Shown in pieces: positions 5,893 through 58,359 of a stretch of DNA of 58,945 nt. The notes below the pieces were generated by a model that was not told the origin of the DNA, searched no databases, and saw nothing but the letters and a program-made list of their open reading frames with translations. Source of the DNA: a virus. Where the stretch lies: IMG/VR virus record IMGVR_UViG_3300043446_001634, positions 1 through 58,945 of that record; one strand, given 5' to 3'. The translations under genes were made by a program, and so were the position numbers. Positions within the stretch are counted from its first letter, which is position 1. Every line of letters begins with the position of its first letter.

Positions 5893-7976
5893 TTTCCCTT
5901 TGCGTCAGACCAACTATGTGCGGAGTGGCAGGACACCTTGATAGGTATTCCCTCAATGACTGTCCCATCTCCCATCGCTTTTGTAAATATGGGAATCATA
6001 TCAGCCACTTCCTCAGTAGGTACCATAACCACCAGTTCGTCGTGTACTTGCACCAACATCTTAGCATTTGTATTATTAAATGCTTCAAATACACCTATCA
6101 TTGCTTTTTTACAAATATCAGCAGCGGATCCCTGAACCACGGCGTTAATAGCCTGTCTTTCTGCACGTGCTTTTAGAGACATATCTGATGATGTGATGTC
6201 TGGAAGCCTACGTCGTCTTCCAGAAATGGTACTCACATATCCTTGTCGGATGGCCGTGTGTATAACAGACTGTTTCCAAACGGTGATACCTTTAAACTGC
6301 TTGTAGTAGTTTTCGATCACAAACCTTGCATGATCTATAGAAACACCGGTGGTGTTTGCCAACTTAGTTGGTCCTCCACCATATGCTGTGAGGAAGTTAA
6401 CACCTTTTCCCAGTTGTCTCTCTTCTGGAGTAACGTCTTTGGGATCCTTTTTCAGAATTAGGGCGGCGGCACCGGCATGGATGTCGGCACCAGTTTTAAA
6501 GAACTCGCTCATCTTTGGGTCGTGAGAAAACATGCACATTACACGCAACTCAATCTGATCATAGTCAGCAACTAACAGAGAGTAGCCGGGTGGTGCAACG
6601 AACAACTTACGAACACTACTGTCTCGTGGAATGTTTTGAAGGTTTGGGTTTGATGAGGACATACGTCCCGTTGTTGTCCTGTGGAGATGGAACGACGGGT
6701 GCAACTTTTGCTTATTAAGTTTTGTAAGAAGACTATCAACGTACGTTGATTTCATTTTCTTTGTTTCAGACCAATCAAGAAGCAAAGGAATGATTGGATG
6801 CTTTGCTTCCATAGCCCGTAGTGATTCCTCGTCAACGGAAGCAGCACCAGTTTTGGTTTGCTTACTTGACTTTAATCCTAAACCACCTTCTGATTTCTTA
6901 GAGAACAATAATTGTTGTTTATGTTTTGTGCTGTCTGGATTGAATCCGGGCGAAACGTAGGACAACATGGAAACAAGTAGATCATTTAGTTTCCCATCAA
7001 GTTCTTTGCCTAGTTTTGACATTGACCTTTTGTCTACATTGATCCCATTATTCTCCATATCCATAAGAACATGGAGAACTTGATTATCCTGTTCTAGACA
7101 AGCCACAAGGTCTGGCTTTGTCTTTATGCGATTCCACAGTTTTTTGTAGAGCAACCAAGTCCAACGGACATCTAGGTGTACGTACTCTGAGGCTTGAGCA
7201 AACGATACTTGATTAATTATCTTTCCAAGTTTTCCGTACCTGTGGTAGGGATCAAACCCGTCGAAGTTGTTGTGAAGCAATTTCTCCAAAGAGTAACCCG
7301 AAAGGTTTTCATCAAGGACGTGCTGCATGAGCATGGTGTCCATGTATGGACCGGGGGGTAGAGCATCGTAATACTTAGTAATAGATCTAGCATCAAACTT
7401 TACGTTGTGCCCGATCTTTAAAAGATCGCTAAAGAAAATTGTCTTCAATGTCTCAAAAACAACTGTCTTGTTTAGTTGTTCTGGTGGTTCGGTAAACTCG
7501 GCTGGTTTGTAGTACCGGGCTTTTGCCAGCGATTCCTTACCGCTTTTTAGGATGCTGCGATAACCCGGAGGTGGAACCGTACTACCATCACCACGTTCTT
7601 CTGGGGTGATTACCTTACCGTTCGGGTGACCCATAGGAATAGCCCATGATTTTCCATCAATGGCAATGCCTATCCAGAAAACCTCATTACGAAGGGGATC
7701 AAGTGCTAGTTGATTTTCCCACTTCGTTATTATTGTTTCTTTTGACCGTGCAAGTATGTCTGAACTAGTCGTTTTGAGACTCTTTTTATGTTCTTTCCAC
7801 TCATCTTCAATGAGTGAAAGCACGTCCTGATGTCGTTCTACTAATCCGCGTGTCTCTACGTCAAAACAAAACCTACCTGCCTCTTGTACCTCTGCTACAA
7901 CTTGCTGTAGTTGTTCAACTGTGTAAACGACAAGGGGGGCCGTATGGCCCCCCTCGTTGGGATCCCCCACCGACAT
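5889..7976 (-). CDS. DNA polymerase I (family A) with 3'-5' exonuclease
   Basis: The 695-aa protein carries exonuclease motifs FDVET (D39, E41), GHNVKFDA (D195) and YVHLD (Y265, D269), then polymerase motif A DYDQIELRV (471-479), motif B with R520, K524, F528 and YG, and motif C VHDE (644-647). It is therefore a complete proofreading replicative polymerase, without a 5'-3' exonuclease domain. Phe at the motif B position equivalent to E. coli F762 predicts discrimination against dideoxynucleotides. A GC-rich hairpin overlaps codons 8-15, and the ribosome site before the ATG is weak. The gene follows the SSB gene by two bases. Confidence 0.96.
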   Translation of the reverse strand: MSVGDPNEGGHTAPLVVYTVEQLQQVVAEVQEAGRFCFDVETRGLVERHQDVLSLIEDEWKEHKKSLKTTSSDILARSKETIITKWENQLALDPLRNEVFWIGIAIDGKSWAIPMGHPNGKVITPEERGDGSTVPPPGYRSILKSGKESLAKARYYKPAEFTEPPEQLNKTVVFETLKTIFFSDLLKIGHNVKFDARSITKYYDALPPGPYMDTMLMQHVLDENLSGYSLEKLLHNNFDGFDPYHRYGKLGKIINQVSFAQASEYVHLDVRWTWLLYKKLWNRIKTKPDLVACLEQDNQVLHVLMDMENNGINVDKRSMSKLGKELDGKLNDLLVSMLSYVSPGFNPDSTKHKQQLLFSKKSEGGLGLKSSKQTKTGAASVDEESLRAMEAKHPIIPLLLDWSETKKMKSTYVDSLLTKLNKQKLHPSFHLHRTTTGRMSSSNPNLQNIPRDSSVRKLFVAPPGYSLLVADYDQIELRVMCMFSHDPKMSEFFKTGADIHAGAAALILKKDPKDVTPEERQLGKGVNFLTAYGGGPTKLANTTGVSIDHARFVIENYYKQFKGITVWKQSVIHTAIRQGYVSTISGRRRRLPDITSSDMSLKARAERQAINAVVQGSAADICKKAMIGVFEAFNNTNAKMLVQVHDELVVMVPTEEVADMIPIFTKAMGDGTVIEGIPIKVSCHSAHSWSDAKGK
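7933..7954 (-). promoter_or_regulatory. GC-rich hairpin at start of polymerase gene
   Basis: A perfect 9-bp stem (AGGGGGGCC / GGCCCCCCT) with a 4-base loop lies within the first codons of the polymerase ORF, right after the SSB stop. On the minus strand it is followed by TTGTCGTTT, a poor U-tract. It could attenuate transcription between the abundant SSB and the scarcer polymerase, or mask translation initiation. No experiment is implied by the sequence. Confidence 0.5.
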
Positions 7977-9181: not shown

Positions 9182-9605
9182 CTATGTATGCCTTCTTTTC
9201 AACAACCTTAAATGCCCACGTTACTTTTTCTTTATTAAAAGATTCAATGATAGGAGAGGCTTCTCTGTGCTCCCAAGCGTAAGCAAGCAGTTTATCTTCA
9301 TCGACTACTTCTTTGAAGATCACGCGTTTTACATCATTAAAAATACCTTCTGACTTTGCCCACTGTTCCGCTGACTCTTCATCAAAGGATAGGGAGGAAC
9401 GCCTTTCCTTTTTCAACTGCCTATTTCCTGCCGGGAGCCAGAGGTTTCCTTTTTCATCTGGTTGTCCCTGCTCATCGACAAGTCGTGTAAGAGCCTCTTT
9501 TAACTCATTCAGCCTAGTTGTAACCTTGTCCAACATAGATTTGGTATTTACATACTCTTCTGAGAGTCGCTCTATATCTTCTTTTGTGTACATGTTATGC
9601 CTCAT
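9171..9605 (-). CDS. Hypothetical coiled-coil protein
   Basis: The 144-aa product starts MRHNMYTKEDIERLSEEYVN and has a heptad-like helical N-terminal half (LDKVTTRLNELKEALTRLVDEQG), a short strand region, then VKRVIFKEVVDEDKLL and a C-terminal helix. The arrangement of a coiled coil plus small domain is reminiscent of Gam/gp157-type nuclease-inhibitor proteins, but I cannot confirm it. ATGA overlap couples it to the helicase gene. Which of the two early ATGs is used (9605 or 9593) is not certain. Confidence 0.58.
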   Translation of the reverse strand: MRHNMYTKEDIERLSEEYVNTKSMLDKVTTRLNELKEALTRLVDEQGQPDEKGNLWLPAGNRQLKKERRSSLSFDEESAEQWAKSEGIFNDVKRVIFKEVVDEDKLLAYAWEHREASPIIESFNKEKVTWAFKVVEKKAYIDES

Positions 9606-25387: not shown

Positions 25388-26389
25388 CTACGTTGTTTCA
25401 TACATAATATTTATCCAACAAACATCATTAGCAGCCATTGTAAAAGCAACGCTAGCAGATGCTGTATCAGACTGTCCTACTGACGCATCAAACTGACCAA
25501 GTGGGTTTAATTGTCTGAGTTCTAGGTTTGTTGATGATGTTACCCTAACGGTACCTCCGGTATAACCGACACCTTGGTTTAAGAATAAGCATTCTCCAAT
25601 AACCGCACTAGCCCCTAAGTCTAGTACTTTAAAAGCAGGTAAATCATTAGGATTTATAGCAATTGCTCCAGATGCAGACGATGTTTTATTTGCAACAACA
25701 CGACATTGTGCAATAACCAGTTTTCCAATTTGTGTGTATCTTGCAAAGGATATGGTTTGATCGCCAGCCCCGGTGCCTAGTTCTACACCACCCTGTTTTA
25801 GTTTTGGTGTCCATGTAGACCATGCACCCGGTGCAGGTCCTGTAGCCCCAGTAGCCCCAGTAGCCCCAGTAGCCCCAGTAGCCCCAGTAGCCCCAGTAGC
25901 CCCAGTAGCACCTGTGGGACCTGTTACTGTGCTTGCAGCACCAGTTGGTCCAGTTGGTCCAGTTGAACCACTAGCACCAGTAGGTCCTGTTACTGTGCTT
26001 GCAGCACCAGTTGGTCCAGTTGATCCAGTTGAACCACTAGCACCAGTAGGTCCTGTTACTGTGCTTGCAGCACCAGTAGCACCGATAGGGCCAGTAGGGC
26101 CAGTAGGGCCAGTAGAGCCACCACTGTTTGGTTGAAAATCATTAATGATATATACAATTCTCGCCCTAGGACCATCAAGTCCCACCAGTACCTGAGTGTC
26201 CTCAGTAGGAACACTCCACACACCATCAACAAGTGCTAGATAATCTTTGGATACCGGTAGATGTTCATCAGGTCCAAGAAGTTCTGGGATCTTTACAAGG
26301 ACTTCACCAGTCGTTGAATCAGAACGAACGACAAGTGCTCTGTGAACATATATACCTGTCTTATGGATGTGTTCATTATTGGTATGCAT
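25388..26389 (-). CDS. Baseplate spike-like protein with collagen-like stalk
   Basis: Residues about 10-90 of this 333-aa protein ([20 protein letters not shown] through [20 protein letters not shown]) look like the OB domain of gpV/gp5-type baseplate hub spikes. A G-x-y stalk of about 95 residues follows ([18 protein letters not shown]...), including seven perfect GAT-coding units, and the C-terminal 130 residues are beta-rich and Val/Ser/Asn-rich. The gene is placed exactly where spike genes lie, after the gp27/gpD-like hub. A spike OB fold joined to collagen is unusual. Alternatively it is a baseplate-anchored fibre. Confidence 0.68.
25842..25904. repeat. 9-bp tandem repeat in collagen-like stalk
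   Basis: GTAGCCCCA is repeated seven times without change. On the coding (minus) strand this gives Gly-Ala-Thr units. Since the unit is a multiple of three, slippage would change stalk length without changing frame. Confidence 0.93.
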
Positions 26390-49517: not shown

Positions 49518-51443
49518 TTATCCGTAGGTGTATACCACGACCTTGCCGTTGCCGCCGTTGCCACCGTTACCGCCGGTTGCGACCACGCCTGCCGTGTTGA
49601 CCGAGCGTGCACCACCGCCACCACCGCCACCGGAACCTGCCGTGCCGTTCCCGCCGTTCCCGCCGGTCACGTTGCCCGATGCGGCATAGGTTGACTGGCC
49701 TCCACCGCCGCCAGACGCGCACCAACCGGTGCCAGCAGTTCCCGCTCCACCGTTGATGGAGCCGGTCGTGCCACCTGCACCGCCAGCGGTAGATCCTGAG
49801 CCGCCACCGGCACCGCCGTCCTGTACGGCTGTCGTGAATGGTGCGCCGCCGTACCCGCCACCAGCAGGAATGGTGAGCGTGCTTGGTGCAGCGACGAACG
49901 TCGGGTTATTGTCGGTCGCTGCGCCTGCTCCGCTGTCGTTGCCCCACTCAATGCCGATAGTGCCAGCGGTGCGGGTGTAGTTCGCCCCACCGAGACCGCC
50001 AGTAGACACGGCAGCGTTCGTCGTCGCGACACCGCCGCCCTGCCCGCCGAGCGCACGAATCAGATTCGCCGCGGAGGAGAACTCGCTGTAGCCGCCGTCA
50101 GTCCCCGATGTGCCGTCAACCTTGCCGTTCGATCCTGTGCCAGTACGGGTCGCACCGGATGCACCAGCACCGCCCTGCCCGACGACGACCGGCTCGGTTG
50201 CCCCGAGATCAGCGGCGGCATACCAGCGGAGACAAACCGCACCGCCGCCACCTCCTCCAGCGCCGCCGCCCGCCGTGCCCTGTGACGCTGTCCCGCCGCC
50301 ACCGCCGCCGCCCGCTCCGACGACGACGACTTGCACCATACGAGCGTTGGCGGGCTTCGTCCATGTGCCTGCACCGGTCGGACCGGTGAACGACTGTGTG
50401 TCGATGAGCGACAGCGTTCCGGTAGGTCCGGTGGCACCAGTAGCACCTGTGGGACCTGTGGGACCTGTTGGTCCAGTAACACCTTGTGATCCAGTTGCGC
50501 CAGTTGCGCCAGTTGCACCTGCGGTGCCTTGCGCGCCGGTAGGACCGGTAGGTCCGGTGGCACCAGTAGCACCAGCAGGCCCGGTTGGCCCGGTGACACC
50601 TGTCGGCCCGGTAGCCCCTTCGGGGCCGGTTGCGCCAGTAGGGCCTATAGGTCCTGTAGCCCCAACGGCACCAGTTGGTCCTGTCGGACCTTGATCACCA
50701 ATATCACCGTTACGGGCAAACGTAATGGCCACTGCTGTGTTATTCGTGAACAGGGTTCCTGTTACATGGGCAATAGGTACTGAGTACCATGTTGTGTTAA
50801 GTGTGTGGGCACCGACAATTGAGTAATATGCAAAGTTTGTTGGTGACGCAACATCATATATTTTAAAAGTACCCTTGATGGATGACGTAGAGTCATCTAT
50901 GGTTTCAAGAAATGCTTGGATATCTGTGCTGTTGGAATCGGTTGTCGAAATGTACAATGCTGTCGCAGACGACGGTGTAGTGCTGCTGAACCTTACATAA
51001 CCAGAACCGGGATCGCTATTTGTTGTAGTTGTTGAATATGTATACGCAAATGTGGCACCACCAAAAGTACCCTGTGGACCAGTAGCACCAGTAGTACCTG
51101 TGGGACCTGTGGCCCCAGTTGGTCCAGTAGCCCCAGCAACACCAGCCACACCTTGAGTACCTTGTGGACCAGTTGCACCAGTAGGTCCTGTTACGGTTGA
51201 AGCCGCTCCAGTAGGTCCTGTTACGCTCGGTCCCGTTGGACCGGTTGGACCGGTTGGACCAGTAGGTCCAGTAGGTCCAGTGGGTCCAGTAGGTCCAGTA
51301 GCACCATCAGAACCAGAAGTCCCAGAAGCACCAGTAGGTCCAGTAGGTCCAGTTGATCCTGTAAGTCCCTGAGGTCCTTGTGCGCCGATTACAGCGGCTT
51401 CCCACTGACTTGTAGTAGTATTCCATATCTTTGCGACTGTCAT
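49518..51443 (-). CDS. Collagen-like fibre with glycine-rich C-terminal domain
   Basis: Start taken at ATG 51441-51443 (ATGA overlap with the upstream gene). The 641-aa protein has a short head ([20 protein letters not shown]), two G-x-y stretches flanking a beta domain (near residues 120-250), then from about residue 350 a domain starting [20 protein letters not shown] with extreme Gly content (GGGGGG, GGNGGNG). The last 900 bases are very GC-rich compared with all neighbours, suggesting recent acquisition. Likely a receptor-binding fibre. Confidence 0.82.
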
Positions 51444-53977
51444 GCTGACATCCTCAATAAGATGGCTGGGTTTGAGCATTCATCAACAATATTAATACCG
51501 GGAGTAATCGTGCTAGGAATACTCGTTACAGTTGCATAAGTAGAACCACCGAGTGTCGTCGCATGTATAGTGCTTCCATAATAACCATTTGAAAGTACAT
51601 AGGTAAATAAATCACTAGCACTTGTTCCTAGTGACATAAATGGTTCGCTGGGTGAAGCGACCCCAGAAGCCCTATCAAACATGATGCGAGCATTAACATC
51701 ATCAAATGAAACTACACCGAGCCAGTACCAACCAACAGTTAAGTTTACACTAATAGTTACGGTATTAACTTGGTTGTTTGTTGGAATAATTGGATCATAA
51801 TTAATCAAACTGCTAGGCCACAGGTTCTCATCTGAATCATAAAGGCATACGTACATATCAGAAGATTGATCAGTAATTGTTGGATAGAATGCTACCTGAT
51901 CTACCAACATATTCACTGGCACAAATATTGGAGTTAATATAAGTCTTTGATAAACTGAATAACTACTTTGTTGACTTCCAAAACTGGGTGGGCCAAAATA
52001 GTGACCCGGAAATGGTGTTGCAAATTGGTGAGGGTACACGCCAGATTCTGTTGTATCAAGCCAGATGACGCTGGTATCAACGGGGGCGGTAGCAGATTTC
52101 ACGACACCTGCTGAACCTGTGGGACCCGTGGGACCTGTAGGTCCAGTTACAGTTGAGGCTGCTCCTGTAGCACCTGTCGGCCCAGTGGGACCTATCGGTC
52201 CAGTTGCACCTGTGTCTCCAGTCTGTCCTGTCGCTCCAGTAGGACCAATGTCTCCTGCAACACCCTGCGGACCAGTTGGACCTGTTGCCCCAGTTGGTCC
52301 TTCTGTTCCTGCAACGCCTTGTGGCCCAGTAGCCCCAGTTGGACCAGTAGCACCGGTCGGTCCTGTTGCTCCGTCTGATCCCACATACCCGGCTGGTCCG
52401 GTTGGGCCTGTTGCACCAGTCGGCCCCTGTGTTCCTGTGGGGCCGGTAGGGCCAGTAACAGTACTGGCTGCTCCGGTTGGACCCGTGGGTCCAGTAGGTC
52501 CTACTTTCTGAGTATTTTCCCAAATACCAGATGTTGAGTTATAGGCAATAACATCGCCATTTGCTAATGTGCTCAAATTAATAGCAACATTATGTAACTC
52601 ATCTATTTCATAACCATTTTGTGTTGCTACGTAAACGATACCGTTATTGGTAGCCCGCACCACTACACCAACAAATACCAAGTGTTCTGGTGATGAAGGT
52701 TTGGTTTTAGTAAACGCACCCCCAGTACCAAGCCATAGAATGTCACCAACAGCCCAGCCGGTGCTGAGATCAATACCGTCTACATATCCTCTAGTTACTA
52801 CTGGGCCGCTATCAGAAGCGGTAATAGGGGCCGCTACAAGGCCCATAGTTTTTGAAGACGCTGTATCTGATGAATTATCTGCACGTTTTACGGATGCATG
52901 ATCACCCGTACCACCGTATAGATATACAACTGTTCCAGTAGTAAGTGTTGTCGATTCGGCATTACGAACATAGGAAACTGTTGGAGCAAAGTCGTTTACC
53001 CAATCAGTACCATCATATACGAGGTTTTGGAATTCCTCAGGACTAGTTATTATTACATCAGTAAGGTCATCAAGGACTATGGTGCCAATAGAACCAGCAG
53101 GTCCGGTTGGACCAGTTACAGTACTAGCAGCGCCTGTCGGCCCTTGTGCTCCGGTAGGACCAGTTGGTCCTTGGATACCCTGTGCGCCTGTAGGGCCAGT
53201 TTCTCCCTGAATACCTTGTGAGCCTGTAGGACCGGTTGGTCCAATTACACCTTGACTACCAGTTGGTCCTATAAGACCTTGCGGACCCGTCGCTCCCGTG
53301 GCTCCAATGGGGCCAGTCGGTCCTTGATCACCTGTTTCACCCTGTGCTCCAGTTGGTCCTGTCGGACCAACCAAACCTTGAGCACCAGTCGGCCCAGTTG
53401 AACCAACCGCACCAGTCGGTCCAGTATTACCAGTCGGTCCTTGAATACCCTGAGTACCAGTTGGTCCCGTTTCTCCTTGTACGCCTTGTACGCCTTGTGG
53501 TCCGGTTGGTCCCACAGACCCAGTAGACCCCGTGGGGCCGGTCGCTCCAACATTCCCAGTATCCCCTTTACTACCTGTTGGTCCTATAGCACCAGTGGCA
53601 CCTGTAGGACCTGTAACACCCTGAATACCTTGCGTACCCGTTGCCCCAGTAGCACCAGTAGGTCCGGTACTCCCAGTTGGTCCAGTAACCGTACTTGCTG
53701 CACCAGTGGGTCCAGTTGCACCCGTAATGCCAGTGGGACCTAGGGCACCAGTTGGACCAGTAACAGTAGAAGCAGCACCTGTTGGTCCTGTTGGTCCAGT
53801 AGGGCCTGCTGGCCCGGTAACTGAACGGTTTACAGAGGCGACTTCAACAACTTTTGTTACTGGGTTATTTTCTATAACTATTGGTTGATCAGGTTTATTT
53901 ATAACCAGATTGTTATTATCTGATGTAGTCGTAACAGTTGTTTTGTCATCTGTACTTATGGACAGTTTTCTTGTCAT
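51440..53977 (-). CDS. Long collagen-like fibre protein
   Basis: The 845-aa protein has an N-terminal head ([20 protein letters not shown]), a G-x-y region of about 250 residues ([31 protein letters not shown]), a beta domain near 300-480 ([20 protein letters not shown]), a second collagen region, and a C-terminal domain near 650-845 with [20 protein letters not shown]. Long triple-helical rods of this type form side or tail fibres. It is overlapped by ATGA-type junctions with both neighbours. No signal peptide. Confidence 0.84.
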
Positions 53978-57029: not shown

Positions 57030-57686
57030 ATGCTAGCCATAATACCATCCATAGGTATGTCTCCACTATTGCCCGGACTTCTAAAAACGCTTAATACACA
57101 AGGTGTAACAACTATTATTGTTGATAACGCACAAAAACCAACAAAGGCCAAAGAATATGCTCAAGAAGCAGGTGTTTTATACAGACACCGACCGGGTTGG
57201 CGTATTTATAAAACATGGAACTTTGGCATACGGATTGGTGCTATTCGTAATGAAAACGTCTTAGTATTAAACGATGACATCATGATTACTGGGGAAGGCA
57301 TAGCAGCGATGAATGCCTCTCTTAAAGAAGACTGGGCACTACTTGGTTTTGACTATAACACGCCATTTAATAATGGATACTCCAATGGTGGCATTCGTGA
57401 GGCCAGTGGAAGTTACCGTCTAGGTGGTGTTGACGGTTGTGCTTTCGGGGTTAATCCACGCAAATGTGGACGCTGTGATAGAAGATTTATATGGTGGGGT
57501 GGTGATGATGATATTTTCCACCACACTAAAAGTTTGGGTGGGAAGGTTGGCTTAATGATGGGAAATGCACTAACGCACATCTCAACCACCACTGGTAAGC
57601 ACACCATGCCACATCTCCCAGAAGGTTGGTTCAAGCATGACCAACAATTACTGCTCTCTAAGTGGGGGGAGACTTGGGGAGATTAA
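57030..57686 (+). CDS. Family 2-like glycosyltransferase on plus strand
   Basis: The 218-aa protein has MLAIIPSIGMSPLLPGLLKT, TTIIVDNAQKPTKAKEYAQE, KTWNFGIRIG, LVLNDDIMI (DD metal motif) and FIWWGGDDDIFHHTKSLGG with an acidic cluster, as in rhamnosyltransferase-like GT2 proteins. AAAGGAG lies 7 bases before the ATG. It is the only plus-strand gene in the right half and its 32-base upstream gap leaves little space for a promoter. Confidence 0.82.
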   Translation: MLAIIPSIGMSPLLPGLLKTLNTQGVTTIIVDNAQKPTKAKEYAQEAGVLYRHRPGWRIYKTWNFGIRIGAIRNENVLVLNDDIMITGEGIAAMNASLKEDWALLGFDYNTPFNNGYSNGGIREASGSYRLGGVDGCAFGVNPRKCGRCDRRFIWWGGDDDIFHHTKSLGGKVGLMMGNALTHISTTTGKHTMPHLPEGWFKHDQQLLLSKWGETWGD

Positions 57687-57689
57687 GAG

Positions 57690-57766
57690 TGCGGGCGGCG
57701 GGGCTTGAACCCGCGTGTCACCAACTACCCTTTCTACACTTTATAAGAGTGAGGGGATACGCCCGC
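57690..57766 (-). tRNA. tRNA-like element, anticodon uncertain, D-arm not canonical
   Basis: On the minus strand, GCGGGCG (57766-57760) pairs over seven bases with CGCCCGC (57697-57691), followed by discriminator A. Directly before the 3' strand lies a perfect T-arm, GCGGG-TTCAAGC-CCCGC (57714-57698). U8-A9 follow the acceptor 5' strand. Length of 77 nt is normal, but a standard D-arm cannot be drawn. The inner hairpin CACT-CTTATAA-AGTG (57751-57737) could be an anticodon arm reading UAU. CCA is not encoded. It may be a degenerate or D-arm-poor tRNA or a tRNA-like structure. Confidence 0.48.
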
Positions 57767-57810: not shown

Positions 57811-58359
57811 TTAAATAAAACGCTTGTCAATGACAAACATCAGTTCATCATTGATAGAGTTCCTGTTTGGAACCCAACGCCTATCAATTGCATACGAATA
57901 CATCTTGAGATGTTCTGGCACTGATGCTGCAATAGCAGGTATCCACTCCGGGTGTGGTATGTCTTCAACTACTAAGATACCGTTATCAGTAAGTAAATGG
58001 CTGTAATTTGCAACTGCAAAACACTGAGACTCCAGTGTATGTGGTCCGTCATCTACGATTACATCAAACCTTATTGCTATGTGTTTAACGGCTTCTTTTG
58101 TGTAAGCATCTGTGAAAACGGCGGTTATGCGATCCTCTAACGCCATACCATTGCAGTTATCAAAAATGTCCATACCGTATACTTGGGCATTACTAAAGTA
58201 GTCTCTCCACATACGAAGAGATTCTCCACCCCATATACCAAGTTCAAGTACATTTGTTACAGTATTGCGTATAGGCTCAAATAGTGCCTCATATACGTGT
58301 ATGTACTGATGTGCAAAACTCTTATCAGTTTTTGATGCAAAGTCATGTAGTGTACTCAT
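57811..58359 (-). CDS. Class I SAM-dependent methyltransferase
   Basis: The 182-aa protein has the Rossmann SAM motif VLELGIWGGESLRMWRDYF around residues 37-55, VYGMDIFD, DVIVDDGPHT near 100-109 and LTDNGILVVEDI. This class methylates sugars or small molecules (for example O-methyl groups on glycans). With glycosyltransferases next to it, it likely modifies the same glycan. Not a DNA methyltransferase of known type (no NPPY or PC motif). Confidence 0.82.
   Translation of the reverse strand: MSTLHDFASKTDKSFAHQYIHVYEALFEPIRNTVTNVLELGIWGGESLRMWRDYFSNAQVYGMDIFDNCNGMALEDRITAVFTDAYTKEAVKHIAIRFDVIVDDGPHTLESQCFAVANYSHLLTDNGILVVEDIPHPEWIPAIAASVPEHLKMYSYAIDRRWVPNRNSINDELMFVIDKRFI

Follow-up and report, generated by a model that had tools for sequence, protein, structure and literature searches.

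A putative phage tRNA-Ile(UAU) gene with a strand-swapped D-arm, a member of a large and mostly unannotated phage tRNA family

A tRNA-like gene on the minus strand

The window, i.e., the whole stretch of 58,945 nucleotides analysed here, stems from a tailed phage. It encodes a tail-sheath protein, and its terminase shares 46% identity with the terminase of Streptomyces phage BRock. Long collagen-like GPT/GAT repeats are present in the open reading frames (ORFs) at 49518-51479, 51440-53977 and 25388-26389. A tRNA-like RNA of 77 nt, which is read from 57766 to 57690 on the minus strand, lies between two ORFs, of which the minus-strand one ends at 57811 and the plus-strand one at 57686. A sequence-only reading of this locus had described a 7-bp acceptor, U8-A9, a 5-bp T-arm, a length of 77 nt and a possible UAU anticodon loop; all of these were recovered at the coordinates given, the acceptor being GCGGGCG/CGCCCGC and the loop the 7-nt CUUAUAA with UAU at positions 34-36. 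Two points had escaped that reading: the RNA strand is the minus strand, since only there does the T-loop UUCAAGC match the tRNA consensus, and the bulge in the interior hairpin conceals a D-stem whose D-loop has moved to a place 3' of the anticodon arm. On the minus strand, the order of the segments is GCGGGCG-UA-U-CCC-C-UCACU-CUUAUAA-AGUGU-AGAAA-GGG-UA-GUUGGUGACAC-GCGGG-UUCAAGC-CCCGC-CGCCCGC-A, which comprises the following features:

57690..57766, minus strand: whole gene, putative tRNA-Ile(UAU) with strand-swapped D-arm; RNA position 1 is 57766 and position 77 is 57690
57760..57766, minus strand: acceptor stem, 5' strand GCGGGCG; all 7 pairs covary with 57691-57697
57757..57759, minus strand: U8, A9 and U10, taken from the sequence; U8 would contact A14 (RNA position 41)
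57754..57756, minus strand: D-stem strand CCC, 5' of the anticodon arm, in the role of canonical 22-25; pairs with 57728-57730
57736..57752, minus strand: anticodon arm UCACU-CUUAUAA-AGUGU, 4 bp plus U.U; 4 pairs with double changes, 99% of cells paired
57743..57745, minus strand: anticodon UAU, positions 34-36, predicted from the anticodon set of the relatives to read AUA (Ile)
57731..57735, minus strand: linker AGAAA, taken from the sequence, replacing the variable loop; GAAA is missing in divergent relatives
57728..57730, minus strand: D-stem strand GGG, 3' of the anticodon arm, in the role of canonical 10-13; Watson-Crick pairing, covariation and RNAalifold
57715..57727, minus strand: displaced D-loop UA-GUUGGUGACAC, assigned from 15-48 covariation, elbow changes and a base 20 that tracks the anticodon class
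57725, 57722-57721, 57720 and 57715, minus strand: R15, G18-G19, U20 and Y48 of this segment, which also holds A14
57698..57714, minus strand: T-arm GCGGG-UUCAAGC-CCCGC; four of five pairs with double changes, the fifth invariant
57691..57697, minus strand: acceptor stem, 3' strand CGCCCGC; covaries with the 5' strand
57690, minus strand: discriminator A73, found in 204/204 Ile-type relatives

CCA is not encoded in the window copy, in which the next base is C74; this base is encoded in 302 of the 307 relatives that have a following base. The spacing from A9 to the anticodon arm is just 5 nt, so that an ordinary D-arm cannot form there. The earlier reading was therefore right that a normal D-arm is absent, but the element is not D-arm-less: D-stem and D-loop are present with swapped strand order, and the stem pairs across the anticodon arm.

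Relatives, covariation and tertiary contacts

Cultured phages of Streptomyces, one phage of Rhodococcus, and crAss-like and gut phages contain sequences with 80-83% identity over about 70 nt. Among cultured phages, the carriers are phages of Streptomyces, Rhodococcus, Microbacterium and Bacteroides, in which the copies are mostly unannotated. The exact core 23-mer is present in 21 IMG/VR contigs and a looser core pattern in at least 120. Across 84,980 bacterial and archaeal genomes, the core pattern was located on five contigs, all of them MAGs, which may be viral or host sequence there, and a search of about 785 bacterial genomes at E<=1e-9 gave none besides the two MAGs that had seeded the searches; with bacterial-genome searches near-empty, a cellular origin was rejected. 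From hundreds of phage contigs, 308 distinct relatives were parsed, which share ancestry, so that counts overstate their independence. The scan patterns fixed U8-A9-U10, C14 and GAAA, and the first scans also CCC/GGG, hence the invariance of these bases is partly due to ascertainment; further scans added relatives with other D-stems and anticodons. A topology-only scanner, using neither the core motif nor the anticodon, gave 388 matches in 3.77 Mb compared to 3 in shuffled DNA. Thirteen of these had not been collected by the earlier scans and are divergent; the majority have other D-stems or GAAA-free linkers. The window element is a real RNA gene and belongs to a large phage tRNA family that is mostly unannotated.

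Divergent swapped tRNAs without the GAAA linker lie at L440 1006-1080, L186 5323-5396, L211 65-142 and L206 6375-6453, with scores of 43, 34, 46 and 52 bits, respectively, against model R1; some of this set build the D-stem from positions 10-12. The copy in L440, which is Streptomyces phage Mildred21, is annotated as tRNA-OTHER. In the same phage, the tRNA-Phe(gaa) annotated at 5994-6069 is a swapped tRNA-Arg(UCG), and a swapped Arg(ACG) at 9484-9560 is unannotated. The tRNA-Leu(UUA) annotated in Streptomyces phage EGole (L004, 2998-3074) is a swapped tRNA locus, and the matching element of Jay2Jay (L003) reads Ile(GAU).

ARAGORN reports zero tRNAs in the window and overlaps only 5 of the 308 relatives, thereby missing 303. 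The Rfam tRNA model (RF00005) gave no match in the whole window with default filters; when a short stretch was searched, it reached 32.7 bits (cut-off 29) and left the D-arm unmatched, and 5 of 15 relatives in 14 loci scored 29-34.5 bits. By comparison, the window copy scores 90.8 bits (E 2e-25) against R1, a model in which the window sequence itself is included. These results show that phage tRNA catalogues systematically miss, and sometimes misname, such genes. As had been noticed before, the interior of the window copy folds as a single bulged hairpin; with a shuffle z of about -2.4, folding energy by itself is weak and unconvincing evidence. Three other readings were rejected. The 5-bp helix UAUCC/GGGUA (8-12 with 37-41) of the minimum-energy fold of the window copy is paired in 77.9% of the alignment, which is not above shuffled. 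A plus-strand match to Plastid-ycf2 (23.9 bits, cut-off 65.7) is an antisense echo of the T-arm. CyVA-1 RNA (RF02965), which has another fold, has no match in the window at E<=10.

In an alignment of 48 diverse relatives, the structure listed above is paired in 97.8% of cells compared to 60.2% after shuffling, double changes occur at 19 of the 20 pairs, and covariation is 1.000 versus 0.237. Sliding the partner by one column destroys the pairing, and RNAalifold arrives unaided at the identical structure. All three D-stem pairs are formed in 100% of cells, each with double changes. This helix (11-13/37-39), which encloses the anticodon arm, is Watson-Crick in 308/308 relatives; triplets other than CCC/GGG are found in 172 of these, recovered by scans that imposed no complementarity. 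Ten combinations occur: CCC/GGG, ACC/GGU, CUC/GAG, CGG/CCG, GCC/GGC, UCC/GGA, CGC/GCG, CGA/UCG, CCU/AGG and CAC/GUG. The anticodon arm of the relatives has a 7-nt loop with U33 and usually 4 bp plus U.U at 27-43.

The segment following the GGG strand reads UA-R-YY-GG-N in the relatives and corresponds to the canonical D-loop A14-R15-Y-Y-G18-G19-N20. The nucleotide next to A14 covaries with the last one before the T-stem, in the manner of R15-Y48 in ordinary tRNAs (A-U 212, G-C 72, A-C 8, G-U 3; p=2e-55 among the 308 related sequences). At the elbow, A19 accompanies U56 in 5/5 T-loops and A18 accompanies G55 in 4/4, and U55-C56 is found in all 294 relatives with a GG D-loop. The 15-48 and elbow contacts suggest a three-dimensional equivalence to canonical tRNA, with which a contact 8-14 would be compatible. 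In canonical tRNAs, the order is 9, 10-13, D-loop, 22-25, anticodon arm, variable loop, T-arm; in the swapped tRNAs, it is 9, '22-25', anticodon arm, linker, '10-13', D-loop, 48, T-arm. As judged from these alignments, one 12-nt block ('10-13 + D-loop 14-21') is shifted across the anticodon arm and keeps its partners. Its position 3' rather than 5' of the anticodon arm makes the D-stem close around that arm and lets the D-loop run straight into the T-arm.

Anticodons, identity bases and tRNA arrays

The anticodons of the 308 relatives are mainly those of Ile (UAU 156, GAU 48) and Arg (94 in total: ACG 37, UCU 34, CCU 14, UCG 8, CCG 1). The remaining ten carry CAU and may be Ile2 or Met types; they were detected as loci with a CTCATAA loop (e.g., L313 11809-11885, L350 and L353) and mostly have a CGG/CCG D-stem. 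As Ile2 (lysidine) or Met tRNAs, they could test recognition by TilS. Dedicated scans for C34 or A34 with AU anticodons (core TATCCCC) and for G35 or U35 anticodons found no real tRNA. A single sequence present at L187 3553-3628 and L188 7434-7509 combines the swapped core with a UAC anticodon (Val), lacks G18-G19 and is possibly decaying or a new isotype. With the dedicated scans empty and this sole exception, isotypes other than Ile, Arg and CAU were rejected. The anticodons of the 13 divergent scanner matches are again all Ile or Arg, which speaks for a genuine isotype restriction, at least among loci preselected for one member.

Base 20 is A in the Arg types, 85 of which have GGA, and U in 199/204 Ile types. 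A73 is found in all 204 Ile types and in 10/10 CAU types, while base 73 is G, A or U in the Arg types. A20 and C35 are the main determinants of tRNA-Arg, and the discriminator and the anticodon are strong determinants of tRNA-Ile (PMC9976931). These identity elements fit the anticodon in both classes; thus, bases outside the anticodon track it as aminoacylation requires.

Canonical tRNAs are present in the fetched DNA at 262 of 299 swapped-tRNA loci, and the nearest one is co-oriented with the swapped tRNA in 269/271 cases. Replacement was assessed in 95 arrays with at least eight canonical tRNAs each. A canonical GAU is present in 2/26 arrays with a swapped GAU versus 43/69 others (p=1e-6), ACG in 0/23 versus 30/72 (p=5e-5), UCU in 0/9 versus 39/86 (p=0.01) and UAU in 1/28 versus 17/67 (p=0.02); for CCU and UCG, the cases are too few and the exclusion is not significant. 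Swapped tRNAs nearly always stand in for the canonical tRNA with the same anticodon in phage arrays, although the exclusion is not absolute. The cultured Bacteroides phage Kehishuvirus 'tikkala' has 23 canonical tRNAs, which include Ile(UAU) and lack Ile(GAU), and its swapped tRNA is GAU. Streptomyces phages Jay2Jay and Karimac also carry a swapped GAU, and Microbacterium phage A3Wally a swapped ACG. An exception may be Mildred21, which has an annotated canonical Ile(gat) together with another R1 match at the place of the swapped GAU of Karimac. GOLLD RNAs occur alongside swapped tRNAs in phage tRNA arrays (L053 5760-6176, L223 6432-6889), and a CyVA-1 RNA lies in the array of L036 (5901-5979), about 320 nt downstream of the swapped tRNA; this match is a separate locus and its fold differs from that of the swapped tRNA. 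In searches of the window with R1 and with ARAGORN, the latter of which detects none, the swapped tRNA-Ile(UAU) is the sole tRNA, and AUA makes up 37% of the Ile codons, i.e., 22 per 1000 codons.

Interpretation and relation to known tRNAs

Comparative sequence evidence shows how the RNA folds and which tertiary contacts it keeps, which anticodon classes exist, that the identity bases match the class, and that canonical tRNAs are replaced in arrays. With high confidence, we propose that the window element is a functional, L-shaped phage tRNA-Ile(UAU) with a strand-swapped D-arm, which would decode AUA codons of the phage. The RNA would adopt the normal L shape around a rewired core, with the 15-48, 18-55 and 19-56 contacts retained. 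It would presumably be transcribed, processed by RNase P and at its 3' end, supplied with CCA, aminoacylated and used by the ribosome; host enzymes would process and charge it, and the charged tRNA would read the AUA codons. For the family as a whole, it is very likely that D-arm-swapped phage tRNAs represent a second natural strand topology of functional tRNA, which has spread in phages of several bacterial phyla, is restricted to Ile, Arg and CAU, and supplies codons in the host.

A decoy for host enzymes, as suggested earlier, or another mimic with the fold and anticodon of a tRNA but no role in translation, for example anticodon-nuclease bait or a regulator bound by IleRS or ArgRS, would suit the unusual fold and the phage-borne members, and phage tRNAs are known to counter tRNA-cleaving immunity (PMC12409363). 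However, the wobble changes (UAU/GAU; UCU/CCU/UCG/ACG/CCG) span codon families, bases 20 and 73 track the anticodon, and canonical tRNAs with the same anticodon are replaced in arrays. A decoy would not require wobble coverage, identity match and replacement all together, and we therefore consider it improbable. Still less probable is a D-arm-less tRNA of the animal-mitochondrial type, in which acceptor, anticodon and T arms are joined by an interior that is a mere connector. The Rfam alignment leaves the D-arm unmatched, and E. coli is able to use a D-armless tRNA-His (PMC11551756); against this, covariation between 11-13 and 37-39 is perfect, and R15, G18 and G19 of the D-loop are retained together with their partners.

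The other two explanations can be practically dismissed. That standard tools do not recognise the element would be expected of a decayed tRNA pseudogene, as had been considered, but hundreds of phages conserve A73, U33 and the T-loop, and covariation extends to every stem; this covariation and the invariant A73 exclude decay. The position between the ends of a minus-strand and a plus-strand ORF had also raised the idea of a two-way terminator or a processing signal between convergent genes. A conserved terminator anatomy is absent, the relatives lie in tRNA arrays in the same orientation as their neighbours, and the tRNA tertiary contacts are conserved; such a signal would account for none of the covariation, the identity pattern and the array replacement.

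The proposed swapped tRNA-Ile(UAU) and its family keep the tertiary contacts of tRNA and rewire the chain, thereby separating features needed for function from historical ones. They could offer a ready test of which D-arm features are recognised by synthetases, EF-Tu, the ribosome, modification enzymes and tRNA-cleaving immune systems, and they raise the new question of why only isoleucine, arginine and CAU are affected.

Literature searches, for which subscription papers and preprints were mostly outside the scope, found no description of a swapped D-arm architecture. With canonical tRNA-Ile and tRNA-Arg (RF00005), the swapped tRNAs share the 7/5 acceptor-T arms, the T-loop UUCRANY, the 7-nt anticodon loop with U33 and A37, A14-R15-YY-G18-G19, the 15-48 and elbow contacts and the identity bases. 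They differ in that the D-stem strands are reversed and enclose the anticodon arm, and in that the D-loop lies between the anticodon arm and the T-arm. As in D-armless mitochondrial tRNAs and the engineered mini-HisT of E. coli, the stretch from A9 to the anticodon arm contains no D-arm; those RNAs lack a D-stem, whereas that of the swapped tRNAs forms and covaries. Odd tRNAs of this sort have been shown to be acceptable to EF-Tu, HisS and the ribosome of bacteria (PMC7609411, PMC11551756). Circularly permuted tRNA genes likewise have a non-canonical order of segments, with the 3' half encoded before the 5' half, and their products are processed and re-ligated into a canonical cloverleaf (PMC3978253). 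In the window element, the 3' half does not precede the 5' half: the acceptor strands of swapped tRNAs are in normal order at both ends, and it is the segment order of the RNA itself that is altered. Allo-tRNAs and tRNA-Sec-like RNAs are also non-canonical and missed by standard annotation, and they depart from the canonical 7/5 acceptor-T composition (PMC7609411). Unlike these, the swapped tRNAs keep 7/5 and change the strand order of the D-arm.
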